Source: an uncultured Cellulomonas sp. (GTDB lineage Bacteria > Actinomycetota > Actinomycetes > Actinomycetales > Cellulomonadaceae). Taken from it: a stretch of DNA of 64,000 nucleotides. The position numbers were made by a program, and so were the translations under genes. Location: positions 310,001 to 374,000 of the forward strand of contig NZ_CANLTL010000001.1 in assembly GCF_947494015.1 (NCBI RefSeq). Reading direction: 5' to 3'. This document shows, one piece after another, positions 29,552-43,033 of this stretch (position 1 is its first letter; every line of letters begins with the position of its first letter). The notes below the pieces were generated by a model. The model worked only from the letters and a program-made list of their open reading frames with translations, was not told the origin of the DNA and did not search any database.

Positions 29552-29622
29552 GCGGGTGTAGTTCAGTGGCAGAACTTCAGCTTCCCAAGCTGATAGCGCG
29601 GGTTCGATTCCCGTCACCCGCT
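29552..29622 (+). tRNA. tRNA-Gly (anticodon CCC)
   Basis: 71 nt. Acceptor GCGGGTG pairs with CACCCGC. D arm GTTC..GAAC. Anticodon stem TCAGC/GCTGA with loop TTCCCAA, giving anticodon CCC (reads GGG). T arm CGGG-TTCGATT-CCCG. No CCA is encoded. From the anticodon loop onward it is part of the 60-bp att repeat, so the 3' half is shared with the integrated element and remains functional. Confidence 0.95.
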
Positions 29623-29641
29623 CCCAGCATCACCGCAGGTC
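29582..29641 (+). repeat. attL: 60-bp direct repeat (tRNA-proximal)
   Basis: Begins exactly at the tRNA anticodon loop (ttcccaagc) and ends 19 bases beyond the tRNA (caccgcaggtc). Identical over all 60 positions to 40879-40938. It also contains the last 12 bases of the integrase gene. Confidence 0.95.
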
Positions 29642-30832
29642 AGGGCCGGCGCCCGGAGCCTGCGACAGCCCCTCAGCGTCAGCAGTCTCTGCGTCGTGCC
29701 CGCTGCGTGCCCGTTCCCGCTGCACCAGGCCGTCCAGCGCTTGCGCTACCGCGCGGTCCCGGGTCGAGCTGGTGTGCAGGTAGATGAGCGCCGCACGGGC
29801 GCTGGCGTGCCCCATCCGAGCCATGAGGTCGGGCAACGTCGCGCCGGCCTGAGCGGTGAGGGTGTTGCCCGTGTGCCGCAGGTCGTGGAAGTGCACGCCC
29901 TCCACCCCGGCCGTCGCCAGGGCACCGCGCCAGATCGCCTGGAAGTTGCTCCGCCGAAGCAGGCCGCCTCGCTTCCCGACGAACACGTAGGAGCCGGCTC
30001 CCTCTCCCGCGAACCGCTGCAGGTGGTCTACGACGTCGGGCAGGATCACGGCGGGCACGGCCACTACGCGCCGCCCGGCCGCCGTCTTCGGTGGTCCCAT
30101 GACGAACGAGCCGTCCGCGAGCTCGACGACGGCGTTGCGCACATGGACCCACCCACCGGTCGCGCTTCCAGCGAGATCGGTCTCGATCACGATGTCCTGA
30201 CGGGCCTGGGCGACGAGCTCACCCCACCGCAACGAGCAGAAGGTCGCGAGCAGGGGGAGGCACCGCAGGTGGTCGGGCAACGCATCCGCCACCGTGTAAA
30301 CCTGGTTACCCGTCAGGGTGGGCCGCTCAGGAGTGCGCTCGACGGACGCGCCCCGCAGCTGGCACGGGTTCGCCCGGATCAGCCGGTCCTCGACCGCCGT
30401 CCCCATGATCGTGCGCAGCAGGCGGTACGCCTTGGCGACCGTCGACTGGCCGAGCCCGCTCTCGACCAAGCCCGCGCGCCACGTCCGGACGCGAGCCGGC
30501 GTGATGCTCACCAGGTCGTACCCGCCCAAGGCCGGCGTGATGTGCAGCCGCACCAGGCCTTCGTAGAGCTGGCGCGTCTTGGGCCGCAGTCCCGGCCGCT
30601 CCTGCACCCACCGAGAGGCGTACTCCCCGACCGGGATACGGCCGGCGTCGGGATCGGTCCAGTCCCCCTGCATCAGGTCCTGCTCGACCGAAGCCAGCCA
30701 CCGGTCGGCGTCCGCCTTCCGCTCGAAGGTGTGGGGCGCCGGCCGGTCCACTCCGTCGGGACCGAGGTAGCGAGCCTGGTAGCGCCCCGACGGAAGCCGC
30801 CGCACCCGACCGAAGCGGCGCTTCGCGGTCAC
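29630..30832 (-). CDS. int: Tyrosine recombinase (integrase)
   Basis: 400 aa; GTG at 30832 overlaps the xis stop (GTGA). It has an N-terminal arm-binding AP2-like region (RRLPSGRYQARYLGPDG), a core-binding SAM-like domain (about 65-155) and the catalytic domain with Arg202 (SLRWGE), His316-x-x-Arg319 (HDLRHTG), His342 (MGHAS) and nucleophile Tyr351 (IYLHTS). It catalyses site-specific recombination between the tRNA-Gly site and the circular element. Its stop codon lies inside attL, as expected for an enzyme gene adjacent to attP. Confidence 0.95.
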   Translation of the reverse strand: MTAKRRFGRVRRLPSGRYQARYLGPDGVDRPAPHTFERKADADRWLASVEQDLMQGDWTDPDAGRIPVGEYASRWVQERPGLRPKTRQLYEGLVRLHITPALGGYDLVSITPARVRTWRAGLVESGLGQSTVAKAYRLLRTIMGTAVEDRLIRANPCQLRGASVERTPERPTLTGNQVYTVADALPDHLRCLPLLATFCSLRWGELVAQARQDIVIETDLAGSATGGWVHVRNAVVELADGSFVMGPPKTAAGRRVVAVPAVILPDVVDHLQRFAGEGAGSYVFVGKRGGLLRRSNFQAIWRGALATAGVEGVHFHDLRHTGNTLTAQAGATLPDLMARMGHASARAALIYLHTSSTRDRAVAQALDGLVQRERARSGHDAETADAEGLSQAPGAGPDLR

Positions 30833-31035
30833 GCCAGAACCCACGTGCCGCGCCGACGCCGCACGGGCTCGACGGTTCCCGCGTCGATGAACTCCCGCAG
30901 CGCCGACTCCGGGATGCGCACGTGCCGTCCCACCCGCACGAACCGGATGCGCCGCTCCGTGATGAGCCGCCGCACGAACCGCTCCCCCGTCCCCAGCACC
31001 TCGCCGGCCTCCACGACCGTCAACAACCTGTCCAC
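30829..31035 (-). CDS. xis: Excisionase (MerR-like HTH)
   Basis: 68 aa. GTG at 31035 with AGAGGGG upstream; a longer frame runs back into rep without a ribosome site. The sequence is a single winged helix of the excisionase family: LLTVVEAGEVLGTGERFVRRLI, then RRIRFVRVGRHVRIPESALREFI. It directs the integrase toward excision. It is coupled to int by a 4-base overlap. Confidence 0.9.
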   Translation of the reverse strand: MDRLLTVVEAGEVLGTGERFVRRLITERRIRFVRVGRHVRIPESALREFIDAGTVEPVRRRRGTWVLA

Positions 31036-31046
31036 CGCTACCCCTC

Positions 31047-32642
31047 TCACGCCGCCGACTCCGTTGCCGAATGCCTGTCCACAGGTGCCGTCGGTGGGCC
31101 GGCACGTGGCCCGGCTGCCTTGGCGGCTTCGTACTGCTCGCGCCAGGCGCGGCGTTGACGCATCGACGCGCTGATGGCCGCGGTGTAGTCGCGCTCCAGC
31201 ACGGGCACGTCGGCCCACTCGAACCGGGGCCGTCCGTCGCTGGCGAGGACCTCAGCGGCGAGGCGTCGCGCGTCGGGTGGTTCGATGCCGGCGGCCTGGA
31301 GGACTTCGCGGACGACGGTGGCGCGGTCGGCGCGGTGCTCGGTCAACGTCTTGCCGGACCACTGCCGGGAGACCAGAACGCGTCGGCCGCCGAGGCCCAG
31401 GTGTTCGCGGTCGTGGGCTTTGGACGGGCACGCCCCGGGGATCAGGCCGGGGCCGGCTTCCATCGGCTGGACGCCATGGCGCAGCCAGTTCGCGCACCGC
31501 GGCGAACACGGCAACCACCGGAGCTCCATGTGGAGCCGGTCGATGTGCGCCTCGTACGCCCGCACCGCCCGATCCTCGGGGTCCACGTGGTCGCGGGCGT
31601 AGGTCTCGGTGACCGACTTGGTCAGGTACTTGCACAGGTACCGCACTGCCCGGTCGGAGTCCTCCGTTCCACCGAGCAAGCCCTTGAGGTCGACCTGGGC
31701 GCCGAACCGCAGCACGTGCAGCGGCTTCGCGTCGGGGTCAGCCCCGAGGTCGTCGAGCGCCCGGTCCCAGCTCGTCAGCGGCGCGGCAGTGTGGGGGTCG
31801 CGGTAGCAGCTCGCGTCCGCGTCCCACACGGGCAGCCGGTCACCGTCGTAGACGACGCGGTCGATGGGGGGCCACCACACCTGGTGGTAGGTCGCCTTGA
31901 CGACCTGCCGCACCACCGAGCGCGGGATGGTGCCGCGGATGGCGGCGTGCAGGTGCGGGGCGAGGCGCTTCTGTGGTTCGACGGCGGCGAAGTACTGCAC
32001 CCGGTAGCCGGCGCACCTGCGGAGGTTCTGCCAGAACCGGTCCACCAGCCGCGGGAACAGCAAGGCGTCTAGGGCGGCGCGCCGGTAGTCGTACCGGGCC
32101 GGGTCGACCGGTGTGCCGGTGCCGGGGATGACCTTGCCGTACGACCCGAGCGTGAGGGTGAGGAACATGCTCGGCCGGTAGGTGCGGCCCGTCTTGGCGT
32201 CGGTGAAGGCCCGCCCGGTCGTGCGCGAGTCCATCGGGACCCGGGGCAGCTCGGGAGCGTCCTGCCGCCGTCGAGTCGACCGCGCCCGCCGCGAGGCATC
32301 CTCGTCATCGTCGCTCGCGTGGGCGTCGTCCAGGTCCAGGCCCAGGTGGAGCTCGTCGTCGGCCTGGTCGTCGGTAGTGGGGCTGGGTGGGTCGTCGGTT
32401 AGGTGCCAGCCTTCGCGGCATTGGTGCATCCGCAGCCGGCGCGCCCGGTCGGCGCACGAGGGGCAGACCGTCTCGCGGGTGGATCCGCACGGGATCGGCA
32501 CGGTGGTGACCTGGCCGGTGGCGCGGTCGGTCACGCGGCGTAGCAGCGGGCGGATGCAGACACCGGCGGCTTTGGCGGCGTCGATCACCACATCGGTGGT
32601 CAGGTCCGGCGCCGACTCGACCCGCTGCTGTGTGGGCATCAC
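31047..32642 (-). CDS. Replication initiator (RepSA-like, HUH type)
   Basis: 531 aa; GTG at 32642 overlaps the tra stop, with an ATG as the second codon. An N-terminal Cys pair (C60-x-x-C63, with further Cys) looks zinc-binding. It is followed by an acidic linker (about 82-118) and then the rolling-circle nuclease: FLTLTLGSYG (160-169), metal-binding HLH at 230-232 (APHLHAAIRG) and candidate nucleophile tyrosines Y335/Y339 (YLCKYLTKS). This is the Rep type of pSAM2-like AICEs. It should nick the element origin after excision so the circle can replicate. Confidence 0.9.
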   Translation of the reverse strand: MMPTQQRVESAPDLTTDVVIDAAKAAGVCIRPLLRRVTDRATGQVTTVPIPCGSTRETVCPSCADRARRLRMHQCREGWHLTDDPPSPTTDDQADDELHLGLDLDDAHASDDDEDASRRARSTRRRQDAPELPRVPMDSRTTGRAFTDAKTGRTYRPSMFLTLTLGSYGKVIPGTGTPVDPARYDYRRAALDALLFPRLVDRFWQNLRRCAGYRVQYFAAVEPQKRLAPHLHAAIRGTIPRSVVRQVVKATYHQVWWPPIDRVVYDGDRLPVWDADASCYRDPHTAAPLTSWDRALDDLGADPDAKPLHVLRFGAQVDLKGLLGGTEDSDRAVRYLCKYLTKSVTETYARDHVDPEDRAVRAYEAHIDRLHMELRWLPCSPRCANWLRHGVQPMEAGPGLIPGACPSKAHDREHLGLGGRRVLVSRQWSGKTLTEHRADRATVVREVLQAAGIEPPDARRLAAEVLASDGRPRFEWADVPVLERDYTAAISASMRQRRAWREQYEAAKAAGPRAGPPTAPVDRHSATESAA

Positions 32643-34105
32643 GCCACCTCCGCCACGGCCGGCAGAGCCGTCATGGACCGGGGCGCGTACGCCTGCGCCA
32701 GGGCGGCGATGTCCGCGTCCGTCACGTGCGTGAATCGCACCCGGGCGGCCTCCGGTGCCCCGTCCTGCCCGACGTACGCGACGCCGGGGGTGGCCTCGTC
32801 GATGAGGTCGGCACGTGCGCCGCGGTCGCGTGCACCTTGACCGAGGGCGAGGGCGACGTGTTCGGGCTCGGTGACCCGCAGCAGAATGCGGGTCGGGAAG
32901 AGGTCTCGCATCGAGATGACGTCCTTGCGGGGGTCCTGCACCGCCCCAACGACCGACACCCCGACCGCGCGGCCTTGGGACAGCAGCAGGGACAGGGCGG
33001 CGATGATCCGGCGCTTGGCGTCCCGGTCGTTGACGTACGCGGTCAGGGACGCGAGCTCGTCGACGATGACCACGATCAGCGGCTCATCCGCGGTGGGCGT
33101 GTGCAGGCGGGATCGACCTCGCAGGGCCGATTGGCGGCGGCGCATCACGGTGACGGCGTCCTCGAAGCCCCGGGCGAACTCCAGCTCGTACCCGGTCGTG
33201 TCGGCGCCGTCCGCGGTGTCGCCGTAGACGAACCGAGCGAACAGCGCCCGGCCCGGTGCGAGCTCCATGCCGCCCTTGGGGTCGATCGCCCACACCTGCA
33301 CCAGCCCGTCGCGGATCCCGGGCGCAACCGCGGCAAGCAGGGACCACAGGACCGAGCCCTTCCCAGACCCGGTGGCCCCGATGACCAGGACGTGAGCGCC
33401 GAGGAGCCGGACGTGGTGCACGAGCCCGTCCTCACCAACCGCGACCGGCAATGCGCCCAGGCGGGGAGGGTCGGCCGGCTCGAACGGCTCCACCGGCGCC
33501 GTGAGCGGGTCGGTGGTGAGGAACCACAACGCGAGGTCGTGCGCCCGCCCGGGGACGGTGCGGACGCGGCAGTCGACTGCGCCGAAAGTCTGCGCCAGGC
33601 GCTGGGTGTTGCTCGCCCAGTCGGTGAGAGTTTGCCCGGGCAGCATCCGCACCCGCACCACATCCACCGCCCCGGTCGAGGCCACCGACACCAAGCGCGG
33701 CAGGTACCCGGTGCCGTCCACCCGCACCGCGAGCCCGGCGGTGACCATGGCCGGCTGCCACACCCACCGGTACACCGTGGCCGCCCGCCACAGCCCCCGC
33801 GTCCGCCAGACCACGAGCCGGACGAACGACCGCGGGTACACGCGCCACCAGGCCACGAGCACGGCGACCGCCACGGCGGCGACCGACAGCACCAACACAG
33901 GTCCCCGGGTCGCGGTCACACGCACAGCCATCAGCGCCGCCACGGCCAGGGCGACGGCCAGCGGGTGTCGCAGCAGCCACCACACACCGGATGCCAACTG
34001 TCGTCCGGCCCACGCTGCGAGGACTGCGGTGAGGGGGACGCGGACCTTGGCGACGTTGAGCCGCATCGGACCGTGCTCGCGCCGGTCGCCGCCCAGGCGG
34101 TTCAC
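32639..34105 (-). CDS. FtsK/SpoIIIE-type DNA translocase (conjugal transfer protein)
   Basis: 488 aa; GTG at 34105 overlaps the preceding stop (GTGA). Two membrane helices at about 46-90. Walker A GATGSGKGS at 243-251, Walker B LIVVIVDELAS, and a QGRAVGVSVVGAVQDPRKD arginine-rich segment. In AICEs the equivalent TraSA/TraB forms a hexameric membrane pump that moves double-stranded DNA between hyphae or cells without a relaxase. No γ-like winged helix is obvious at the C-terminus, so recognition of a clt site may be done elsewhere. Confidence 0.9.
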   Translation of the reverse strand: MNRLGGDRREHGPMRLNVAKVRVPLTAVLAAWAGRQLASGVWWLLRHPLAVALAVAALMAVRVTATRGPVLVLSVAAVAVAVLVAWWRVYPRSFVRLVVWRTRGLWRAATVYRWVWQPAMVTAGLAVRVDGTGYLPRLVSVASTGAVDVVRVRMLPGQTLTDWASNTQRLAQTFGAVDCRVRTVPGRAHDLALWFLTTDPLTAPVEPFEPADPPRLGALPVAVGEDGLVHHVRLLGAHVLVIGATGSGKGSVLWSLLAAVAPGIRDGLVQVWAIDPKGGMELAPGRALFARFVYGDTADGADTTGYELEFARGFEDAVTVMRRRQSALRGRSRLHTPTADEPLIVVIVDELASLTAYVNDRDAKRRIIAALSLLLSQGRAVGVSVVGAVQDPRKDVISMRDLFPTRILLRVTEPEHVALALGQGARDRGARADLIDEATPGVAYVGQDGAPEAARVRFTHVTDADIAALAQAYAPRSMTALPAVAEVA

Positions 34106-34305
34106 AGCGTGCTCACCTTTTCCCACAGCCACGTCCCGGCTGCGGTCAGGGCCTCGTTTACCGCCGGACCGGCCGGGGTCGCCCCCAGCACCAGACCCAG
34201 CACGACGCACACCAGGCAAGCCCCGATCCGCAGCTGACCGGTCCGCAGCAGAAGCACCACCAGAGCGGCCAGGACCAGGGCGACGGCTGCGACGCTCACG
34301 GTCAT
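34102..34305 (-). CDS. Small two-helix membrane protein of the transfer operon
   Basis: 67 aa. Helices at about 3-22 (VSVAAVALVLAALVVLLL) and 29-48 (GACLVCVVLGLVLGATP), then an amphipathic tail. ATG overlaps the upstream stop and its stop overlaps the tra start, so it is tightly co-translated with the translocase. It could be a Spd-type spread protein or a partner of the translocase. Function not shown. Confidence 0.75.
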   Translation of the reverse strand: MTVSVAAVALVLAALVVLLLRTGQLRIGACLVCVVLGLVLGATPAGPAVNEALTAAGTWLWEKVSTL

Positions 34306-34694
34306 GCCGCCTTGCCGTCGGCCACGCCCTGACCCTGGCCTTGGGCCTTGCCGCCGACCACGCCGTCAGCGGTCCAGGTCTCCACCAGGCCGCCGGCCTT
34401 GTTAACCCGGGTCTCGACCCACAGGTCGGTGAACTCCACCCGACCGAACTCCTCCACCACCGGTCGGTTCAACGACCCCACCGTCACCGTGGCCGTCGTG
34501 TTCGAGACCCGGCCCCAGGACGATTGCCGGTAGATCACCTCCACCGCCCACAGCGGCATCCCGGTGTTCTCATCCCGCGCCTGGGTCTCCGACGGCCGCC
34601 GCCGCCCGTCCAGCTCCACCCACTCCTTGACCTCATCGACGATGCCCGTCGCCCGCATCACCTGACGCTTGCTGTCCACCGCGTACCCGCTCAT
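34302..34694 (-). CDS. Small β-rich protein, first gene of the AICE transfer operon
   Basis: 130 aa, ATG start with AGGAGGA directly upstream. The pattern of short strands (ATGIVDEVKEWVE; MPLWAVEVIYR; TATVTVGSL; VEFTDLWVETRV) suggests an OB-like fold, and similar small proteins precede FtsK-type genes in other actinobacterial elements (from memory). The C-terminus is a Gly/Gln/Ala-rich tail (GKAQGQGQGVADGKAA). A single-strand-binding or accessory role is possible but unproven. Confidence 0.7.
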   Translation of the reverse strand: MSGYAVDSKRQVMRATGIVDEVKEWVELDGRRRPSETQARDENTGMPLWAVEVIYRQSSWGRVSNTTATVTVGSLNRPVVEEFGRVEFTDLWVETRVNKAGGLVETWTADGVVGGKAQGQGQGVADGKAA

Positions 34695-34814
34695 CGTTCC
34701 TCCTGTGTAGGGGTCTATACGCCCCGGCGTGGGCCGGCACCTGCCGGTTTAGGGGGGTAAACGGCACCGTAGCCAGCTAGGGCAGCGTCGGTCAACCCCT
34801 CTAAACTCGCAGCC
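34695..34814. promoter_or_regulatory. Divergent AICE control region with operator-like repeats and a leaderless promoter
   Basis: 120 bp between the transfer operon and the HTH/PP2C operon. A dyad tgccggttta-N6-taaacggca spans 34742-34766. The stretch t(t/g)tag(a/g)ggg recurs at about 34706, 34749 and, inverted, 34796-34805. On the plus strand taaact at 34802-34807 lies 7 bases before the ATG at 34815, the spacing of a -10 box for a leaderless transcript; no Shine-Dalgarno is present. These repeats are good candidates for the binding site of the 34815 gene product. Confidence 0.6.
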
Positions 34815-35639
34815 ATGGCGGCTGACGAGTTCGAGCAGGTGCGACGGGAACGCGACCCGCTGCGCCAGGCCCAGCGCGCCACCGATCTCCTCGCCACCTA
34901 CCAGCAGCGGGGCGTCGAGCTCGCGCGGCTTCGTAGGGACGCCGTTGAGCGTGCGGCCGACGAACTCGGCCTGTCCTACTCAGCCGTGGCAGCCCGCATC
35001 GGACTCTCCAAGGGGCGCATCACACAGATCCGACAGTCCGCCCCACTCACCGAGCGCGGCTTCTTCGGTGTTGGGCCACTAACCGTGGCCGTACCGCTGC
35101 GCGCGATGCCCGCCCGGCCGAGCGGCGTCATCGCGCACGAGGACGCCTTGGCTTCGGAGCGCCTGACGGGCCTCCTCACAGGCCTCCAGTTCCAGGTCCG
35201 GACGCTGCACATTCCGCCGGACGGCGACTGGCGCCCTCCGGCCGAGGCCATCGCCATCTGTGGCCCGAAGTCGTCTCGTGTCACGGTGGAGGCGATCGCA
35301 TCTGATCCACACCTGGCCTTCGATCAAGGCCCGCAAGGGCACTGGTCAATCCGCGACAGATTGACCAATGAAGAAGTGAAGTCCCCGATGGACGAAGGCA
35401 TCGACAGTGAGGACTTCGCGTATGTCGGCCGTCTGCCATATCGGGACCATCTACTGTTCGTCATTGCCGGCATCCACGCACTGGGCTCACTCGGCGCGGT
35501 AGATTACTTGACTGCGAATCTGAAGGCGCTATACGCGACGGTTGGACAGGCGCCGTTTTCTCTCGTCGTCCGTAGCACGTTTGACGGCAATACCGTTACC
35601 AAGTCGGAGGCACTATGGGGACCACGCGCGCACCCGTAG
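34815..35639 (+). CDS. HTH regulator with C-terminal sensor domain
   Basis: 274 aa. Residues ~30-66 are a sigma-region-4-like helix-turn-helix (RDAVERAADELGLSYSAVAARIGLSKGRITQI). Then comes PLTERGFFGVGPLTVAVPLRAM and an α/β domain with an EAIAICGPKSS loop near 150, DPHLAF..GPQGHWSIRDRLTNEE and DFAYVGRLPYRDHLLFVIAGIHALGSLGAVDYL. I know this arrangement from Streptomyces proteins annotated as sigma-factor-like HTH, without an established role. It overlaps the PP2C gene by 25 bases. I infer that it is the element's master regulator, replacing the usual GntR-type KorSA, with its activity modulated by the coupled phosphatase. Confidence 0.75.
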   Translation: MAADEFEQVRRERDPLRQAQRATDLLATYQQRGVELARLRRDAVERAADELGLSYSAVAARIGLSKGRITQIRQSAPLTERGFFGVGPLTVAVPLRAMPARPSGVIAHEDALASERLTGLLTGLQFQVRTLHIPPDGDWRPPAEAIAICGPKSSRVTVEAIASDPHLAFDQGPQGHWSIRDRLTNEEVKSPMDEGIDSEDFAYVGRLPYRDHLLFVIAGIHALGSLGAVDYLTANLKALYATVGQAPFSLVVRSTFDGNTVTKSEALWGPRAHP

Positions 35640-36454
35640 CACGCATCGCTGCGGCCACGCGGCAAGGAAGCGGCTCGACGAACCAGGATCGATACGTGGT
35701 CGGGGAGCACTACGCGGCCGTCCTTGACGGGGCATCCTCGGAGAGCGTCACCATCCCGGGCCGTGATGGCGGCTGGTATGCGGAGGCCCTCTCACACCGG
35801 CTCGTCAAATTTCTCGACGAAGATGCTGGCGGCACCACCGCCGACGTGGTCGCCCGTGCGATTGCCGACGTGCGCGACGCCTACAGCCTCGATCCCGAGT
35901 CCACACCGACGAGCACTGTCGCCATCGCGAGGTGGACCGACACGTCGATCGACCTATTCGTCTTGGGCGACAGCACCGCCGTAGCGCTCCTCGCAGACGG
36001 CACCGAGTTGCTCCAGACCGACGACCGCTTAGCCAATGTCGCGCGCGCAGAGCGCGACGCCTACCTCAGCCGGCTGGCGTCGGGCGCCGGCTACGACCCA
36101 GGGCATCGCGACCTATTGCGCCGACTCCAGGCACACCAACGCGCCGAGCGGAATCAGCCTGGTGGCTACTGGATTGCGGGCGCCGAGCCGGGCGCTGCTT
36201 ACCAGGCGATCACCACGAGGCTCAGTCGGCACGGAGCAGCGGCGATCGTCCTAGCCACCGATGGCGCGGCCAGCGCGGTCGATCGCTACCAGTTGCTTCC
36301 CGACTGGCAGGCGTTCGTCGAGCGCCTGAAGACCCTAGACCTGGCGCCGCTCCTGCTAGAGATTGAGCAGCACGAAGCATTCGACCCCAACGGCCAACAC
36401 TGGCCCCGTGGCAAGCGACACGATGACAAGACGGCCGTTTACGTCGGTCTATGA
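35615..36454 (+). CDS. PP2C-type serine/threonine phosphatase
   Basis: 279 aa, ATG with GGAGG 5 bases upstream. The PPM/PP2C metal residues are in place: Asp25 in STNQDRY, Asp38-Gly39 in AAVLDGAS, FVLGDSTAV, IVLATDGAAS and the C-terminal DDKTAV. The phosphatase is soluble, and no kinase gene is nearby. It is translationally coupled to the HTH-sensor gene, so it probably dephosphorylates that protein or a shared partner. Confidence 0.85.
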   Translation: MGTTRAPVARIAAATRQGSGSTNQDRYVVGEHYAAVLDGASSESVTIPGRDGGWYAEALSHRLVKFLDEDAGGTTADVVARAIADVRDAYSLDPESTPTSTVAIARWTDTSIDLFVLGDSTAVALLADGTELLQTDDRLANVARAERDAYLSRLASGAGYDPGHRDLLRRLQAHQRAERNQPGGYWIAGAEPGAAYQAITTRLSRHGAAAIVLATDGAASAVDRYQLLPDWQAFVERLKTLDLAPLLLEIEQHEAFDPNGQHWPRGKRHDDKTAVYVGL

Positions 36455-36656
36455 GAGCTCTATCAGAGCCATGCGTGCGTGGCTGGTCCTCCACTAGGGG
36501 CGGGAGCCGGGGGCGGCCAGCAGTATGCGTAGTCAGTAGTGGGCGCAGGCGCGGATGCCGTGGGCCACCGCTCTGACAGGCTTACCGGGCTACACCGCTA
36601 GAAGACACGCCCTAGCGGGCTGCACTGATGGTTGCCTTATACGCCATGCTGAGGCA
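36455..36656. other. Spacer with no clear gene
   Basis: About 200 bp after the PP2C gene, less GC-rich than the chromosome. It may hold the promoter of the next gene. The frame of the next gene is open from 36555, but no ribosome site supports that longer form. Confidence 0.4.
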
Positions 36657-37250
36657 GTGCAGGACCAGTGGGGGTGGAACCCCTCAACCTTCGAGGCCAT
36701 CGGCACGGTCGCCGCAGCTACCCTTGCGGCTGTCGCCCTACTCCTCGCCGTTGCCGATCGTCGCAGCGAAGCACGGCGCGCACGACAGGCCCAAGCCCAA
36801 CCGATTCTCGTCTTCGAGCACGGCAGCGGGCGCAGGGGCGATCCGCTCGAGGTGGTGGTCCACAACAGGGGAGGGACTGATGTCATGGTTTCGGCTTTTA
36901 CACTCAGGTATCGGGCCCGATCGTTCTGGAATCGCAAGAGACCTCGGAACTGCCACGATGTCATCACTGAGCCACCCGACCCTCAGTATGAGGGCTACCG
37001 TTCTAGCCTTCTGCCTCTCGACCTATGGGGCTATGCCTCCTACGACTGGCGAGCACGCCCACATCTACGCGGGCCCGAGGTTGTGGCACCCGGCGATTCG
37101 ACTAGCATGACTATTCGCCTAGGGCCTTGTGCGCCGCCATGGGGCGAACGTAAGAACACTTTTGGAGTCATGTTCGCTGACGGAGACGGCAACGTATGGA
37201 CGCGCACAATCGGCGGTAGGCTACGGCCGGGCAATCAGTTTCTTCTCTGA
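36657..37250 (+). CDS. Hypothetical single-helix membrane protein
   Basis: 197 aa if the GTG at 36657 is the start; an in-frame ATG at 36555 would add 34 residues, and neither has a strong ribosome site. The N-terminus is WGWNPSTFEAIGTVAAATLAAVALLLAVADRRSE in pieces: a short outside segment, one membrane helix (about 11-32) and a basic stop-transfer. The cytosolic ~150 residues are β-rich (ILVFEHGSG; LEVVVHNRGG; VAPGDSTSMTIRLG), as in immunoglobulin-like folds. Similar small membrane proteins occur in phage-defence and mobile-element cargo, but I cannot name a family. Confidence 0.6.
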   Translation: MQDQWGWNPSTFEAIGTVAAATLAAVALLLAVADRRSEARRARQAQAQPILVFEHGSGRRGDPLEVVVHNRGGTDVMVSAFTLRYRARSFWNRKRPRNCHDVITEPPDPQYEGYRSSLLPLDLWGYASYDWRARPHLRGPEVVAPGDSTSMTIRLGPCAPPWGERKNTFGVMFADGDGNVWTRTIGGRLRPGNQFLL

Positions 37251-37429
37251 CGGGGCGCCCGGCAGCAGCCCGAACCGACCCTCACTCTTGGTCGAGGCGT
37301 CAGGAGCCCAGGTCGTGTGCTTGGCCCGCGGGGCGCCGGGTCGCGCCGCTCGGTCGAGCCGTTCACCCGCTGGGTGGCTAGGGTTGCTTGAGTAGCCCAC
37401 ACCTTGTTCGCCTAAACGAAGGAGCAGCG

Positions 37430-38527
37430 ATGGCAGACCGTCACGGATCGCCGTCACATCAATCTGGCGAACGAACAGACTTGGTTGCGGCGTTCCTTGA
37501 AGCGCAGCGGGCGGCAGTGCTCGAGATTGCCGACCAAGGACTCGTCTCTCTCGCTCGGCTGGTCGAGACACAGGCCATCGACGTTGCACCCAGCTTTCAG
37601 AGACGGGATCGCTGGGACTCCGAACGGCAATCGCTCCTTATAGAATCACTAATGACCAATATTCCTGTCCCGCCCGTGTATCTGGCGGAGGACCTGGCGC
37701 GCATCGGGAGCTATGCCGTCATCGACGGAAAGCAGCGACTGACCGCCATCAGCGTATTTTTCGCGGACAGACTCACATTACGCGGACTGACTCGCTTGAC
37801 AGATTTCAATGGGCTTCGCTATTCACAGCTGCCTCCTCAGGTTCAGAACGCTCTCGGAATGAAGAATCTGCGCATCACGACGCTGCTTCGCCAGAGCAAT
37901 GAGGAGCTCAAGCACGAGGTGTTTCTGCGACTCAACACTGGTGGTGAAGTGTTGAACGCGCAAGAGATTCGGAACGTCGCATATCGCGGTCCCCTCAACG
38001 ATCTAATCTACGGCCTCGCCGAGAACGACTTCCTGCGCAAGCAGTTCAAGGTCCAACCGCCGTCGTCGCCGGCTTATCGGCAGATGACCGACGCAGAATT
38101 CGTCTTGCGCTTTTTTACTCTGCACGCCCACTGGCGTGCCTTCAGCGGAGGACTCCGCGAGGCGATGGACCAATTCATGATGGTGAATCGCTTCCTCGAG
38201 CCCGGGCATCTTGACCGCCTTGCAAAAACTTTCCGCAACGCCATCGATATCGCAGAGGCAGTTTGGGACGGGGAGGCTTTCAAGCGGCCTGGTAGGGATC
38301 AGGCTCTCGCAGGTCTGTATGACGCGCAGATGATCGCCGTCGCAAGCCTTAATGAGGAGGATCGTGCCAACTTGGTCAAGCAGCAAACCGAGGTTCGATC
38401 CGCGACGGCCCAGCTCTTCGACTCTGCCGAATTCGACGAGGCCGTGCGGCGTGGGACCAACACCCCGTCGCGCTTACGGTTCAGGACCGAAGCGCTCATC
38501 CAGACCCTTCGACCCTTCGTGGGCTGA
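37430..38527 (+). CDS. DUF262 (ParB/GmrS-like) protein
   Basis: 365 aa; ATG at 37430 with AAGGAG 6 bases upstream decides the start over an upstream ATG. The DUF262 domain fills the first ~200 residues: PSFQRRDRWD (53-63), the catalytic-type IDGKQRL (98-104) and FLRLNTGG (165-172). This is the domain found in the S half of GmrSD-type restriction of modified DNA. The C-terminal DUF1524 HNH nuclease of GmrSD is absent; the rest is helical. The stop TGA is followed immediately by the ATG of the HEPN-like gene, so the two work as a pair. Confidence 0.82.
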   Translation: MADRHGSPSHQSGERTDLVAAFLEAQRAAVLEIADQGLVSLARLVETQAIDVAPSFQRRDRWDSERQSLLIESLMTNIPVPPVYLAEDLARIGSYAVIDGKQRLTAISVFFADRLTLRGLTRLTDFNGLRYSQLPPQVQNALGMKNLRITTLLRQSNEELKHEVFLRLNTGGEVLNAQEIRNVAYRGPLNDLIYGLAENDFLRKQFKVQPPSSPAYRQMTDAEFVLRFFTLHAHWRAFSGGLREAMDQFMMVNRFLEPGHLDRLAKTFRNAIDIAEAVWDGEAFKRPGRDQALAGLYDAQMIAVASLNEEDRANLVKQQTEVRSATAQLFDSAEFDEAVRRGTNTPSRLRFRTEALIQTLRPFVG

Positions 38528-39463
38528 ATGAGCAGCGCAGCCCGGGCGGCCTTTGTCGATGGTATGGCCGCCTTCACTACCGCGCTAAGCGAGCCCGCTG
38601 TAACGGCTCAAGACGGTGCTGGCGCCTTTTTGCGACGCGGCCTAACCGTCGCGGCCTATAACTTGCTTGAGAACTTCGTCGACGACCGGCTTACCGAACT
38701 CGCATCGCACGTTAACGCGGGACCGGTGCAATTTCTTGACTTGCCTGACAAACTCCAGCGACGCGCGATACAGCACACGCTCGACGTGGCGACGGCGCGA
38801 CTGCGCCGACAGAACGTTACTACGGCGGAGATGCGACAGTTCTCGAGCGGACTAGGCCAAAACCTGACGGCAGTGGGCGCCGCGCTATCGGTATCGCCAT
38901 TCACCTGGGCGTGGCCCGGAAGTAATCTGGGCGCCGCCGACATCGCTGGGGCCATGAGTCACTTCTGGATCGACGGATCCTGGGAGACCGTCCGCGGGGT
39001 AGCGGGCCGCATTGGCTTCACCACGACGAACCCTGCTGGCCAGAATCTCGACCTCGCTGAAGAGTTCCGCGCTATATCCGCCGAGCGCAACAGCGCGGCA
39101 CACCAATCGATCCATCCGATCACGTCGCTCTGGCTCAGAGCTCTGCCCGAGCGCCTCATGCGATTGGCGGTGCCCATCGATCTACTGCTGTCTTGCGGAG
39201 CGCACGCTTTACATAATGCCGACGCGACTCTCCTCGCCGGGCGCAAATGGAATGCGTCTGCGCGGCTGAAACTTCGGTTCGTCGACCAACGCGCGAGTGA
39301 CCATGCTACATTCAAGGAGGCAGCTAAACGGGCCACCGCCAAGGGCCCCGACGGGGTTGCTCTATTCACAGCGGCCTGTGTTCAGGCAAGTGACTATGAA
39401 GCAGTCGTTCGACGTGACCGCGTCAAGCAGGTCGTCACTTGGGCGTTACCTTGCGCTGACTAG
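38528..39463 (+). CDS. HEPN-like putative RNase, partner of DUF262 protein
   Basis: 311 aa, ATG directly after the DUF262 stop. It is predicted all-helical. The N-terminal half has the long-helix pattern of MAE_28990-type HEPN proteins (LTVAAYNLLENFVDDRLTEL, about 39-58). Residues 187-192, RNSAAH, match the HEPN Rx4H active site. HEPN domains of this kind are metal-independent RNases used in abortive-infection and toxin-antitoxin systems. I infer that the DUF262 protein senses (nucleotide or foreign DNA) and this protein kills or arrests by RNA cleavage. Alternative: a toxin whose antitoxin is the DUF262 protein. Confidence 0.65.
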   Translation: MSSAARAAFVDGMAAFTTALSEPAVTAQDGAGAFLRRGLTVAAYNLLENFVDDRLTELASHVNAGPVQFLDLPDKLQRRAIQHTLDVATARLRRQNVTTAEMRQFSSGLGQNLTAVGAALSVSPFTWAWPGSNLGAADIAGAMSHFWIDGSWETVRGVAGRIGFTTTNPAGQNLDLAEEFRAISAERNSAAHQSIHPITSLWLRALPERLMRLAVPIDLLLSCGAHALHNADATLLAGRKWNASARLKLRFVDQRASDHATFKEAAKRATAKGPDGVALFTAACVQASDYEAVVRRDRVKQVVTWALPCAD

Positions 39464-39612
39464 CCGCCGCTCCGGCGTCGCCTCCCCGCCGCCCCGCACT
39501 GCCGAACTCCGCTCTAATGAATCAAGGCGCCGGCTACGCCGACGCGTGCCTGCGGGCGGCGCTGGCGCGCCGTCCTCGGCACACCGAAAGGGCTTCTATA
39601 AGTCGTGACGCC

Positions 39613-40347
39613 TCAGGTACCGCCCCTCAGGGCCAGCATCGCGACGACGAAGCTGCCGAGAGCTAGTAAAGCAGCTAGAACCCCGGCCGCTACGCCCACC
39701 TCCGCCGTAAGCCATGAGCCCTGCGCGGCTGGCTTGCGAACCAGGTGGCCACCCCCGAATCGACGGGATAGCGTACGGAAACCAAAGTAGACCAGGAAGT
39801 TCCACAAGATAACAAGCACGAGTACCAGAGGCGTGCTCAAAGTTTGCGACACCCCAGCCAGCAGGGATCCCGGCTCGCGCAACTCGGCCCAGACGGAATA
39901 TGCCAGCAGTAGCACCAGCCAGATTGAGGGAATCCAGAGTCCGGATACGATTCCCCTGATCCGGGCGCGCCCGGGGCGAACACCCGCGAGCTCGTCGCGG
40001 CACCGATGCGTAGCCGCCATGGCTAGTCCGCCGCCTCGCACGCTCAAAAAAACGTGCTCCGGCCGTATCAAGTACCCCTCAACTGTAGAACCGTCGTCGA
40101 AACGCCAATTGACATAAATGCGGAGGACGCGGTCTACGTCCATGATGCGATTTAGGTCGTGCACGTCGATCGTCTTCGTTGCGCCGTTCTTCCAAGCGAC
40201 CACGACACTGCGAGACTCGTGCCGACTCGTCCCCACCCAAAGTTCGTCCAGTGCCTTCACAACCTCGACAATGGTGTATGTGTTGTTCGGGAGGGGCATG
40301 CGCACCGGAGGGGAAGGCTCCGAGATCGGCGGAGGGGTCGAAGACAT
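39613..40347 (-). CDS. Hypothetical three-helix membrane protein
   Basis: 244 aa from ATG 40347; in-frame ATGs at 40356 and 40359 are possible and no strong ribosome site picks one. Residues 1-~125 are cytosolic and β-rich (NTYTIVEVVKAL; SVVVAWKNGATKTIDV; IYVNWRFDDGSTVEGYLI). Three helices follow at about 137-158, 172-190 and 214-238. Unknown family. It is the only cargo gene on this strand, convergent with the HEPN-like gene, and shares the less GC-rich composition of the element. Confidence 0.65.
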   Translation of the reverse strand: MSSTPPPISEPSPPVRMPLPNNTYTIVEVVKALDELWVGTSRHESRSVVVAWKNGATKTIDVHDLNRIMDVDRVLRIYVNWRFDDGSTVEGYLIRPEHVFLSVRGGGLAMAATHRCRDELAGVRPGRARIRGIVSGLWIPSIWLVLLLAYSVWAELREPGSLLAGVSQTLSTPLVLVLVILWNFLVYFGFRTLSRRFGGGHLVRKPAAQGSWLTAEVGVAAGVLAALLALGSFVVAMLALRGGT

Positions 40348-40359
40348 GGCCAACATCAT

Positions 40360-40878
40360 CCCGCGTGCTCATCAGAATCGGGTGGAAGCACGCGAGCGGG
40401 CGCGTCCCCGCCAGCGGCATGCTCTGCAGGCTCGGCGACGTGCGCGACGCACTGCTCGGGGACTGGGGAGACGATCGGGTCGACTGCGAATCGAGTGAGT
40501 TGAGATTCACACGTCCGCCGGGCCCACCGCAGCGACCCACCTACCCGCGACAGCCATGGCTGCCAAGTCAGTCGTTTGTCGCACCTCCGAGCCGTCGACC
40601 CGGCCGCTGAGCATCCGCCCGGCTTCGGTCCGCATCAAGGGCGCCTGCGGCGTCACTACGTGATGAGCTGCGCTCCCCCCTGACCCAGACCTCCGTCGGG
40701 TTCTGTGCTCCGCTATCGGGTCGGCGGCTCTCCCTGGCCAAGCCCGTGCCCGTTGCGTGCCCGATCCGGCAGCCGGCCAAAGTCACTCAGCGGCACCGAC
40801 GGGCGAGCACCATGGACCTTCACGCCTGAGCTGGCGCCGTTCCACCACGAGCGGATGTCCGGTCGCGCTCGACGCCAA
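40360..40878. other. Non-coding right end of the element
   Basis: About 520 bp from the last cargo gene to attR with no convincing gene. Being next to attP in the circular form, it is where integrase/Xis arm sites, a transfer locus or an origin might lie. One stretch (gtgcccgttgcgtgcccg, about 40748-40765) closely resembles gtgcccgctgcgtgcccg in the integrase 3' end at about 29697-29714. This could be a duplicated arm site or chance. Confidence 0.45.
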
Positions 40879-40938
40879 TTCCCAAGCTGATAGCGCGGGT
40901 TCGATTCCCGTCACCCGCTCCCAGCATCACCGCAGGTC
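40879..40938 (+). repeat. attR: 60-bp direct repeat (distal)
   Basis: Exact copy of 29582-29641, i.e. the 3' half of tRNA-Gly(CCC) plus 19 bases. There is no acceptor or D arm upstream, so it is not a second tRNA gene. It marks the right boundary of the element. Confidence 0.95.
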
Positions 40939-41059: not shown

Positions 41060-42736
41060 CTACCTCCGCTCGAGCGCGGCGATCGCGGCGACGACCCGAG
41101 CGGTCGCGGCGTCGACCTCCGCCTGGGTGCTCCGGGTGGCCATGACCACCCGTGCCTTGCCCGCGGCAAGACGGACCGCGGCGACGCTCTTGCCGGTGTA
41201 GTCCCGCCCGGTCGGGTTCAGCGCCTTGGCCTCGGCGACGACGTCCTCGAGTCGCGACGTGTCGGTGACCGGCTTGCGCAGGCCCAGCCAGCCCTCGGGG
41301 TCAGCGACCGCCACCGCGCCCAGCTTCGGGGTCCAGTCGCTGTTGAACAGCAGCGGGTTGTGCGTCGATCGCCAGCTGAGCTGGTCGTTCAGGCCCCAGA
41401 AGGTCACCCGGTGGATGTCCTGGGAGTACTTCTTGTAGACCGCGAAGTACTCGGCGAACCGCTGGGCCTGGATGGCCTCCAGCTCGGTGCGGCTGCTGAT
41501 CTTGCCGACCCAGTAGTCGAACTCGCCGCGCGAGATCCGGTCGGCGACCGACGGGTCGTTCAGGTCGCGGTAGAGCGACCGGTCGTCCCCCTCGGGCTGG
41601 CCGTTCCAGGCCTCCCACACCTGCAGGTCGAGCTCGCTGATGTCGGCCTCGAAGCCCGCCTCGGTGATGAGCTGGAGCGACCGCTCCACCGACGCCTCGT
41701 TCGAGCAGGCACCCGGCCGCCACTCCTCGGCGTCGTCGTCCACCAGCTCGGGCAGGCGCGTGAGGTCGGAGCAGGCGAAGGCCGGCGTCTGGTTGATGTA
41801 GTTGTGCGACTGCAGGCCGATGACCTCCACGAGCTGCCGCGGGTCCTCGGGGTGCTCGGCGGCGTACCGCTCGTTGAGGTCCGTGGCCATCGCGATGATC
41901 GCCTGGCCCTTGCCCTCGGACTGGAAGACGTTGAAGTCGTTGTACTCGAGCCGCGTCTCGGGACCGTACGTCCGGGCGAACACGAACGCGTCGTAGAGGA
42001 AGTCCGCCGGCGACTCGCCCGCTGCCAGGTCGGCGCCGTTGGCGTAGGCGTTGTACCAGTCGGAGAACCCGCCGTTCGGGCCGCCGCGCAGGAAGTCCCG
42101 CCAGTCCTGGGTCGCGGGGTCGAACTCCGCGAGCCCGTCGACGAACGCCTCGTTGACGACGTCCCAGGAGACGACCTTCCCGCGGTAGTGCGTCAGGACC
42201 TCCTCGATGTAGCGCTCCATGTTGGCGCGGGCCTCGTCGCGCGTGAGGCCCCGGTTGAGGTTGGGCGGCGACTGCCCGTGCCAGACCAGCACGTGCCCGT
42301 GGACCTTCATGCCGCGCGCGAGCGTCTGGTCGACGAAGGCGTCCGCGGGCCCGAAGTTGAAGGTCCACTCGCCCGTGGCCCGGTTGATGTTGGCGTTCGG
42401 CAGCAGCTGGTCGGGCTTCATGGCGTTCTCGGCGGTCATGATGCTGAAGTGCCGCTCGACCACGGCCGAGTTGGGCGACCCCGCCGCGTACGTCGCCGGG
42501 CCCGACCAGATGTTCCCGACGTCGAAGTAGTCGCTGTAGACCTCCTTCAGCGAGGCGATCGGTGCCTGCGGCGTGGTGTCGTGGTGACGGGCGGCCTGGG
42601 CGGTCGGTGCCAGCCCGACCGTCGCGAGAGCGACCGCGAGGCCCACTCCCGCCCACCGGGGGGCACCGGGCCGGTGGGTCCGCGGCGTCGTCACCGCGGT
42701 CGCCCCACCTCGTCGTGTGGTGCGTCGAATCATCAT
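41060..42736 (-). CDS. Secreted GH10 endo-1,4-β-xylanase with FIVAR-like module
   Basis: 558 aa. Twin ATGs at 42736/42733 follow GAGAGGA; a longer frame has no ribosome site. The signal peptide ends at about residue 49 (PTAQA). The GH10 barrel spans about 60-470 with acid/base Glu196 (WDVVNEAF) and nucleophile Glu368 (ISELDLQVW), plus the -1/-2 site motifs TAENAMKPD and HGHVLVWHGQSP. The last ~65 residues, with YTGKSVAAVRLAAGKARVV and QAEVDAATARVVAAI, resemble a FIVAR module, a wall- or sugar-associated helical repeat. It cleaves internal β-1,4 bonds in xylan outside the cell. An operator-like box lies about 180 bp upstream. Confidence 0.93.
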   Translation of the reverse strand: MMIRRTTRRGGATAVTTPRTHRPGAPRWAGVGLAVALATVGLAPTAQAARHHDTTPQAPIASLKEVYSDYFDVGNIWSGPATYAAGSPNSAVVERHFSIMTAENAMKPDQLLPNANINRATGEWTFNFGPADAFVDQTLARGMKVHGHVLVWHGQSPPNLNRGLTRDEARANMERYIEEVLTHYRGKVVSWDVVNEAFVDGLAEFDPATQDWRDFLRGGPNGGFSDWYNAYANGADLAAGESPADFLYDAFVFARTYGPETRLEYNDFNVFQSEGKGQAIIAMATDLNERYAAEHPEDPRQLVEVIGLQSHNYINQTPAFACSDLTRLPELVDDDAEEWRPGACSNEASVERSLQLITEAGFEADISELDLQVWEAWNGQPEGDDRSLYRDLNDPSVADRISRGEFDYWVGKISSRTELEAIQAQRFAEYFAVYKKYSQDIHRVTFWGLNDQLSWRSTHNPLLFNSDWTPKLGAVAVADPEGWLGLRKPVTDTSRLEDVVAEAKALNPTGRDYTGKSVAAVRLAAGKARVVMATRSTQAEVDAATARVVAAIAALERR

Positions 42737-42904
42737 CGATCCTCTCGTGCTTGCGCTGGGGAGCCGGCGTGGCGGGGGTGTGCCCCGTCCGGGCCGACGT
42801 CCTGTCCGTGAACCGCCCCATACCTCTCGTCCGTCGCGGCGTCGTCGCCGGCAGCGCTGGGGCCGTGCGCTGCGCCGTTGCAGCCTCGATGTCGTCGTTC
42901 CGCG

Positions 42905-42923
42905 CAGCGGTAGAAAACGTTTT
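42905..42923. promoter_or_regulatory. LacI-type operator upstream of the xylanase
   Basis: gtagaaaacgttttac at 42908-42923 contains a perfect 10-bp palindrome aaaacgtttt with a central CG, the classic form of a LacI/GalR-family binding site. It is the most AT-rich spot in the 42737-43033 spacer. The LacI gene at 56446 is a candidate regulator. The rest of that spacer shows no gene. Confidence 0.6.
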
Positions 42924-43033
42924 ACATCGGGTGTGACCGGAACGTTAGCGATAAAGGGCACAGGGGGCAAGGGCGTCCGTCGGTGCGCGGCCCACACCCG
43001 CCCGGCGCCCCGGGGCGCCGGCGTGCTGCGCTC

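Follow-up and report, generated by a model that had tools for sequence, protein, structure and literature searches.

A 64,000-nucleotide stretch of DNA from an uncultured Cellulomonas sp. (contig NZ_CANLTL010000001.1 of assembly GCF_947494015.1, positions 310,001 to 374,000; hereafter the window, with positions counted from its first letter) carries an 11.3-kb segment that is a complete actinomycete integrative and conjugative element (AICE) of ordinary size, integrated in tRNA-Gly(CCC). At the head of its transfer genes stand a gene pair, encoding a helix-turn-helix (HTH) protein and a PP2C-type phosphatase, and a row of three operator-like sites, and this combination, which recurs in many actinobacterial mobile elements, is probably a transfer switch. 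The anatomy of the element, its repeats, the conserved pairing of the two genes, the conserved operator-like array and the link of that array to the presence of the pair are direct observations. We hold with considerable confidence the account as a whole, namely an AICE in tRNA-Gly(CCC) with an HTH-operator switch, a PP2C input and a cargo of a DUF262 protein and an HEPN-like protein. To our knowledge, the control of AICEs is known in detail for few elements (pSAM2, with KorSA, Pra and Pif), and our literature search found no description of an HTH-PP2C-operator module. The element is a new member of the AICEs, and its regulatory module is new relative to the literature searched.

The integration target, the ends and the leftward genes of the element are as follows.

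29552-29624, plus strand: tRNA-Gly(CCC), the integration target, whole on the attL side (ARAGORN; anticodon at 29584)
29582-29641, plus strand: attL, exact repeat, a 60-bp attachment (att) core running from the anticodon loop to 17 bp beyond the tRNA
40879-40938, plus strand: attR, second exact copy of the 60-bp core
29630-30832, minus strand: int, tyrosine recombinase of 400 aa (PF00589, E 4.2e-13, profile positions 91-169 of 172; PF14659, E 4.9e-8)
30829-31035, minus strand: xis, excisionase-type HTH protein of 68 aa, with a 4-bp overlap with int (TIGR01764, E 8.7e-16)
31047-32642, minus strand: rep, RepSA-family replication initiator of 531 aa (PF20199, E 1.3e-95, profile positions 3-410 of 438)
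32639-34066 or 34126, minus strand: tra, FtsK/SpoIIIE-type DNA translocase (TraB-like) of 475-495 aa, depending on the start (PF01580, E 8.7e-11, profile positions 10-86 of 221)
34102-34305, minus strand: open reading frame (ORF) of 67 aa, hydrophobic by eye, no family match, assigned by position only
34302-34694, minus strand: 130-aa protein, first gene of the leftward array, no Pfam match, weak homologues in loci L093, L099 and L275

The tRNA is the only one that ARAGORN finds in the window, and the att core opens with TTCCCAA, the anticodon loop. A 43-bp att probe, allowed up to 3 mismatches, had two copies only in the window and 0 in 100 shuffles, and a search of the host genome with the tRNA as query returned, besides the tRNA itself and the second att copy, two tRNA-Gly genes of different anticodon at 78% identity. 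Given the exact repeat, the missing third probe copy and this genome search, the boundaries hold as a first-pass annotation of the window had described them: an AICE between perfect 60-bp repeats in tRNA-Gly(CCC), with both ends exact (29582-29641 and 40879-40938 are identical) and a core running from the anticodon loop to beyond the tRNA. Its statement that the mobility genes are intact is likewise borne out, the frames of int, xis, rep and tra all being open. The compactness that it noted is nothing special among siblings: an exact repeat of 33-86 bp was obtained for 30 of 45 sibling loci whose int adjoins a tRNA, and the 26 of these that carry int, rep and tra have a median length of 12.0 kb (range 8.8-17.2) and a median of 3.3 kb from the HTH-PP2C module to the far repeat. 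Both the length of 11.3 kb and the 60-bp repeat are ordinary.

According to Ghinet 2011 (PMC3218068), an AICE unites Int, Rep and an FtsK-type Tra within a region of 30-60 kb in which int does not separate rep from tra, and most tyrosine-type AICEs are found in tRNA 3' ends. In the window, PF00589, PF20199 and PF01580 all score above the Pfam cut-offs, the order is att-int-xis-rep-tra, and the repeat and its location indicate integration into a tRNA 3' end between direct repeats. The Tra protein matches those of other RepSA elements at 38-58%. No type IV secretion system (T4SS) or relaxase family scored above cut-off when 12 ORFs were searched with Pfam and 10 with NCBIfam, tra giving weak P-loop cross-hits only, and a search for clt repeats, the sites to which Tra binds in AICEs, returned short, weak tandem repeats only. 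From the 130-aa gene through the 67-aa ORF, tra, rep and xis to int, neighbouring genes overlap or lie no more than about 40 bases apart, so we read them as one operon starting at 34694. The element shares with AICEs of the pSAM2 and pMR2 type the integration in a tRNA 3' end, a tyrosine Int with Xis, a RepSA-family Rep and a single FtsK/SpoIIIE-type translocase; it differs in that none of its 12 ORFs has a Pfam match to GntR (KorSA) or NUDIX (Pif), and in the HTH-PP2C pair and the three operator-like sites that head its transfer array.

This control region, on which the first-pass annotation made no comment, comprises the following features.

34705-34720: operator-like site O1, GTGTAGGGGTCTATAC, 2 mismatches to GTYTA-N6-TARAC
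34747-34762: operator-like site O2, perfect palindrome GTTTAGGGGGGTAAAC, the only exact site in 64 kb
34791-34806: operator-like site O3, GTCAACCCCTCTAAAC, 1 mismatch
34815-35639, plus strand: HTH protein of 274 aa, N-terminal HTH and C-terminal alpha/beta domain (HTH families below curated cut-offs; AlphaFold2 pLDDT 94.9)
35615-36454, plus strand: PP2C-type phosphatase of 279 aa, with a 25-bp overlap with the HTH gene (PF13672, E 1e-8)

The phosphatase scores 35.4 bits against a Pfam cut-off of 24, and its residues D25, D38, G39, D216, G217, D270 and D271 are invariant in 14 sequences, its own included; the aspartates among them, which we take to be the metal-binding residues, place the window protein in the PP2C family. 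In the HTH protein, residues 78-263 form an alpha/beta domain resembling the N-terminal domain of GH67/GH115 glycosidases and a BcsB domain.

The two genes travel together. Matches to the HTH protein occur in 37 of 394 genomes of the class, the window's own included, and a PP2C gene adjoins the HTH gene in 21 of 25 loci of the class set. We then rely on a sample of relatives, the best 80 of 199 from a scan of genome contigs, in which PP2C lies on the same strand as HTH in 72 loci; 46 of the 80 have int, rep and tra, 3 have two of the three, 15 have one and 16 have none. In the loci with all three, the HTH gene and the rep nearest to the module diverge in 31 and point the same way in 15. Other AICEs with the pair (Kineosporia rhizophila L114, Promicromonospora L110 and L113, Amycolatopsis L132) have in common with the window element the order int, rep, tra, HTH, PP2C and the operator-like sites, and that of K. 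rhizophila also sits at tRNA-Gly(CCC); they differ in cargo, the 80 loci containing no close homologue of the window DUF262 or HEPN-like protein (phmmer, E < 1e-8). Among plasmid records, mostly from Streptomyces, 24 contain the HTH protein and 32 the phosphatase, whereas the HTH protein was found in no phage record. The linear plasmid pRL1 is among these plasmids, as is pVMKU, which has a MOBP relaxase and a T4SS coupling gene and whose tables list a sigma-factor-like HTH gene, a PP2C gene and then an Abi-family gene; plasmid records frequently label the HTH protein a sigma-70 family factor. On a Streptomyces uncialis plasmid (L223, 9857-11188), the PP2C match falls mostly within a coding sequence annotated "UTRA domain-containing protein", and the phosphatase may there be fused to the ligand domain of GntR regulators.

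In the window, O1 to O3 are 42 and 44 bp apart and lie in the 120-bp gap between the two divergent units. When gapped palindromes were counted over the 300 bp that precede the HTH match start, 25 of 81 regions had GTTTA-N6-TAAAC and 19 had GTCTA-N6-TAGAC, whereas no palindrome exceeded a count of 4 in 50 mononucleotide shuffles. With up to one mismatch and a spacer of 6-7 allowed, at least one site occurs in 77 of the 81 regions, and three or more occur in 50; the total of 191 sites compares with a mean of 1.6 and a maximum of 7 in 200 mononucleotide shuffles, and with 10 sites in 1,067 windows drawn at random from the same loci. Successive sites are 39-49 bp apart in 95 of 114 cases, and in 34 non-redundant sites conservation is confined to the palindrome and does not extend to its flanks. 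The array also follows the pair: among 40 RepSA loci, an exact site occurs only in the 2 that have HTH-PP2C and in none of the other 38. Furthermore, the residue that precedes Gln71 in the recognition helix of the HTH protein tracks the third base of the half-site, His going with C/G in 22 of 23 sites and Thr or Ser with T/A in 43 of 48.

With a spacer of 5-7, the exact form amounts to 65 sites upstream of HTH in 53 of the 80 loci; the other 1.43 Mb contains 16 more. Of these 16 outlying sites, seven precede the HTH match start by about 0.6 kb (L168, L171, L177, L179, L181, L182 and L184) and six follow it by about 1.7 kb, just after PP2C (L166, L170, L176, L180, L185 and L188), a distribution that suggests a small regulon within each element.

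Our working model is that the element's own tyrosine integrase would have placed the 11.3-kb AICE into tRNA-Gly(CCC), and that the single leftward array would encode transfer, replication, excision and integration. The HTH protein is predicted to bind the three operator-like sites of the divergent gap and would thereby set the expression of the leftward array, of its own gene and of the overlapping PP2C gene. The phosphatase, by dephosphorylation, would probably tie this switch to a Ser/Thr phosphorylation signal. The interval between the HTH-PP2C module and attR is a variable cargo slot, in which the DUF262 and HEPN-like proteins probably sense or restrict invading phage via an RNase-type effector. 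If the pair is indeed a transfer switch, GTYTA-N6-TARAC in three sites at 43-bp steps would be a testable rule that predicts the control region; this rule would reach many elements of soil actinomycetes, drug producers included, and would provide a handle on the signal that mobilises such elements. The slot next to HTH-PP2C is a place to seek restriction and defence genes.

In the window, this slot and the right end of the element contain the following.

36555-37250, plus strand: 231-aa protein, hydrophobic segment by eye, cargo (no Pfam family above cut-off; weak PADLOC "1TM" effector, E 0.021)
37430-38527, plus strand: DUF262 (GmrSD_N) protein of 365 aa with a DGKQR motif (PF03235, E 2.6e-22; PADLOC NsnA, 1.3e-67, and PD-T4-2_A, 6.9e-39)
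38528-39463, plus strand: HEPN-like protein of 311 aa, R187-NSAA-H192, starting directly after the DUF262 stop (PF18735, E 0.0011, below cut-off)
39613-40359, minus strand: 248-aa protein, hydrophobic segments by eye, no match of note
40583-40878: right end of the element, 83% identical (with attR) to a remnant in genome G001

The G+C content is 73% from int to tra, drops to 66% in HTH-PP2C and reaches 58-62% in the cargo, the flanks having 73-76%, and this stepped drop is in line with separate acquisition of the parts. Matches to the HEPN-like protein occur in 4 of 396 genomes of the order, the window's own included. DUF262 stands beside HEPN in 2 of the 3 other genomes, which belong to two other families of the order (DUF262 66% and 48% identical); the third, where the HEPN match is weak, has no DUF262 gene within 3.3 kb. 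The R-x4-H motif is kept in all three HEPN genes compared, despite identities of 42% and 25%. In their build, a DUF262 gene adjoining an HEPN-type gene, the two window genes resemble the PD-T4-2 system (Vassallo 2022), which PMC10952713 lists with DUF262 and PF18735 HEPN and for which PMC9519451 reports protection against T4. The DUF262 protein matches PD-T4-2_A but scores better with NsnA, and the HEPN-like gene matches no PADLOC family at E <= 0.1, PD-T4-2_B included, as is also the case for its two relatives. The pair is a putative counterpart of PD-T4-2, and we make no claim of membership. With the type IV restriction systems GmrSD and BrxU it shares the DUF262 (GmrSD_N) domain but has no match to DUF1524 (GmrSD_C); a distant DUF262 protein in the sibling L161 has a weak GmrSD_C match.

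Of the cargo that the first-pass annotation had called defence-like, the DUF262 gene matches PADLOC defence models, PD-T4-2_A among them, and the second gene of the pair matches none. The annotation's contrast with a usual metabolic load is not supported: restriction-modification and phage-resistance genes have already been reported as AICE cargo (PMC9513070), so the type of cargo is not new. In siblings, for which 52 of 54 predicted ORFs of the slot were scanned (two near-duplicates from L188 being left out), the slot holds an AspBHI-type restriction enzyme (L126), the DUF262 protein with the weak GmrSD_C match (L161), an HEPN/RES gene with a RES gene (L109) and the PADLOC candidate PDC-M48B (L137), as well as regulators and unknowns.

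The genome search for the same tRNA site that the earlier annotation had proposed found it occupied by other elements and, in some genomes, free-looking. In all five genomes of the genus that were covered, something adjoins the tRNA-Gly(CCC) at this place, the present element being one case. The remnant in G001 measures 1.8 kb, and its right end matches window 40583-40928 at 83% identity. The interval in G004 is 8.6 kb long, is bounded by a 43-bp exact repeat and has an integrase of its own that faces the opposite way; G003 has another integrase match at the site, and in G002 the integrase match is split between frames. In the family, where 220 genomes were searched, an integrase match, weak in two cases, lies no more than about 1.5 kb from 9 of the 29 tRNA-Gly loci outside the window's own genome. 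Among five hand-picked family genomes read over 20 kb, G192 has a 17.3-kb element with a 43-bp exact repeat, its int and xis each 45% identical to those of the window and in the same order, and no rep or tra match, and G018 has a different integrase. The other three (G022, G073 and G113) have one tRNA copy and about 18 kb of flank with no match to the 12 element proteins (E 1e-3), and so look free of such an element. As for the integrases most similar to that of the window, drawn from a pool of 89 loci (the 80 best relatives and 9 hand-picked), tRNA-Gly is the nearest tRNA in 8 of 12 and the rest have Ala (2), Arg (1) or none (1). Among the eight is L128, which lies 12 kb from its tRNA as the inner element of a tandem pair.

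Several results weigh against the account presented here. The rep product reaches 21 of the 700 bits of the NCBIfam RepSA equivalog cut-off and the tra product 34 of the 800 bits for TraB, which on sequence makes them relatives, not orthologues, of the named proteins, and int and tra cover their Pfam profiles only partly. In a reverse test starting from RepSA loci of the class-wide list, the pair was present in 0 of 20 pSAM2-type and 2 of 20 second-group loci, so that HTH-PP2C is a minority, exchangeable module. Of the 80 HTH loci, 15 have a single one of the genes int, rep and tra and 16 have none, a full 20-kb neighbourhood being available for 10 of these 16. Four of the 81 upstream regions have no site at up to one mismatch, and an exact-form search, the only one made there, found no sites in two of the three plasmid regions with the pair (L224, L226; pVMKU, pRL1) nor in L090, L097 and L100-L103; a consensus promoter scan of the divergent gap gave nothing. 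The operator pattern was discovered in the same regions in which it was first counted, so the independent weight lies with the shuffles, the random windows and the 40 RepSA loci. The covariation of residue and base runs along clades, is uncorrected for descent and counts a few loci twice, and hence is supportive but no proof. Regarding the cargo, the HEPN-like protein scores 19.4 bits with PF18735 against a cut-off of 28.4 (its relatives in L105 and L104 give 16.9 bits and no match), and its structure prediction has a pLDDT of 38, with no usable fold.

Some of these results would suit another reading, in which HTH-PP2C is cargo or an addiction module (a toxin-antitoxin or host-manipulation pair) whose operators serve autoregulation only: the pair is missing from 38 of the 40 RepSA loci sampled, 16 of 80 HTH loci have no int, rep or tra match, and plasmids with other transfer systems carry it. 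We consider this unlikely in view of where the pair sits. It is divergent from rep and heads the transfer array in 31 of 46 int+rep+tra loci, co-directional elements have six exact operators just after PP2C on the tra side (at +1.70 to +1.76 kb, in the loci named above), and on pVMKU, too, it diverges from a long series of leftward genes, the T4SS coupling gene among them. Within the interpretation as a transfer switch, the broader proposal that the pair and its conserved three-operator array form an exchangeable unit, used by AICEs at many different tRNA sites as well as by plasmids whose transfer machinery is unrelated, and coupling mobilisation to host protein phosphorylation, is offered tentatively, our confidence in it falling somewhat short of even. 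The element might also be immobile, its genes looking open while excision or transfer is lost, as in decayed relatives such as the G001 remnant, the split integrase of G002 and a tRNA-Pro element of the same genome with split rep and HTH genes. All mobility frames in the window are open, the 60-bp repeats are identical and rep matches the RepSA profile over most of its length, which makes such a loss improbable. HEPN proteins are common toxins, and the DUF262 and HEPN-like genes, low in G+C and, for HEPN, rare in the order, could form a stabilisation module of toxin-antitoxin type. That they do so instead of acting as a defence pair seems rather doubtful, given the strong matches of the DUF262 protein to PADLOC defence models, the listing of PD-T4-2 with both domains (PMC10952713) and the restriction-like genes that occupy the same slot in some siblings.

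The same genome contains two further elements. L275 (G000:C4:290000-304290) is a second RepSA element, beside a tRNA Gly(GCC)-Cys-Val(GAC) cluster, whose rep and tra are 61% and 58% identical to those of the window and which has no HTH or PP2C match within 14 kb. L106 (G000:C1:150000-169900), the element at tRNA-Pro(CGG) mentioned above, has a 22-bp tRNA repeat about 12 kb away; with its rep and HTH genes each split between frames, it looks decayed or else affected by assembly errors. A single tRNA-Gly(CCC) of Amycolatopsis thermalba (L128) is followed by two tandem AICE gene sets, and an exact 42-bp repeat closes the first of them. Immediately to the right of attR, the window DNA has no match next to the tRNA in congeners; a large minus-strand ORF there (41060-42997) presumably encodes a protein resembling secreted GH10 xylanases.

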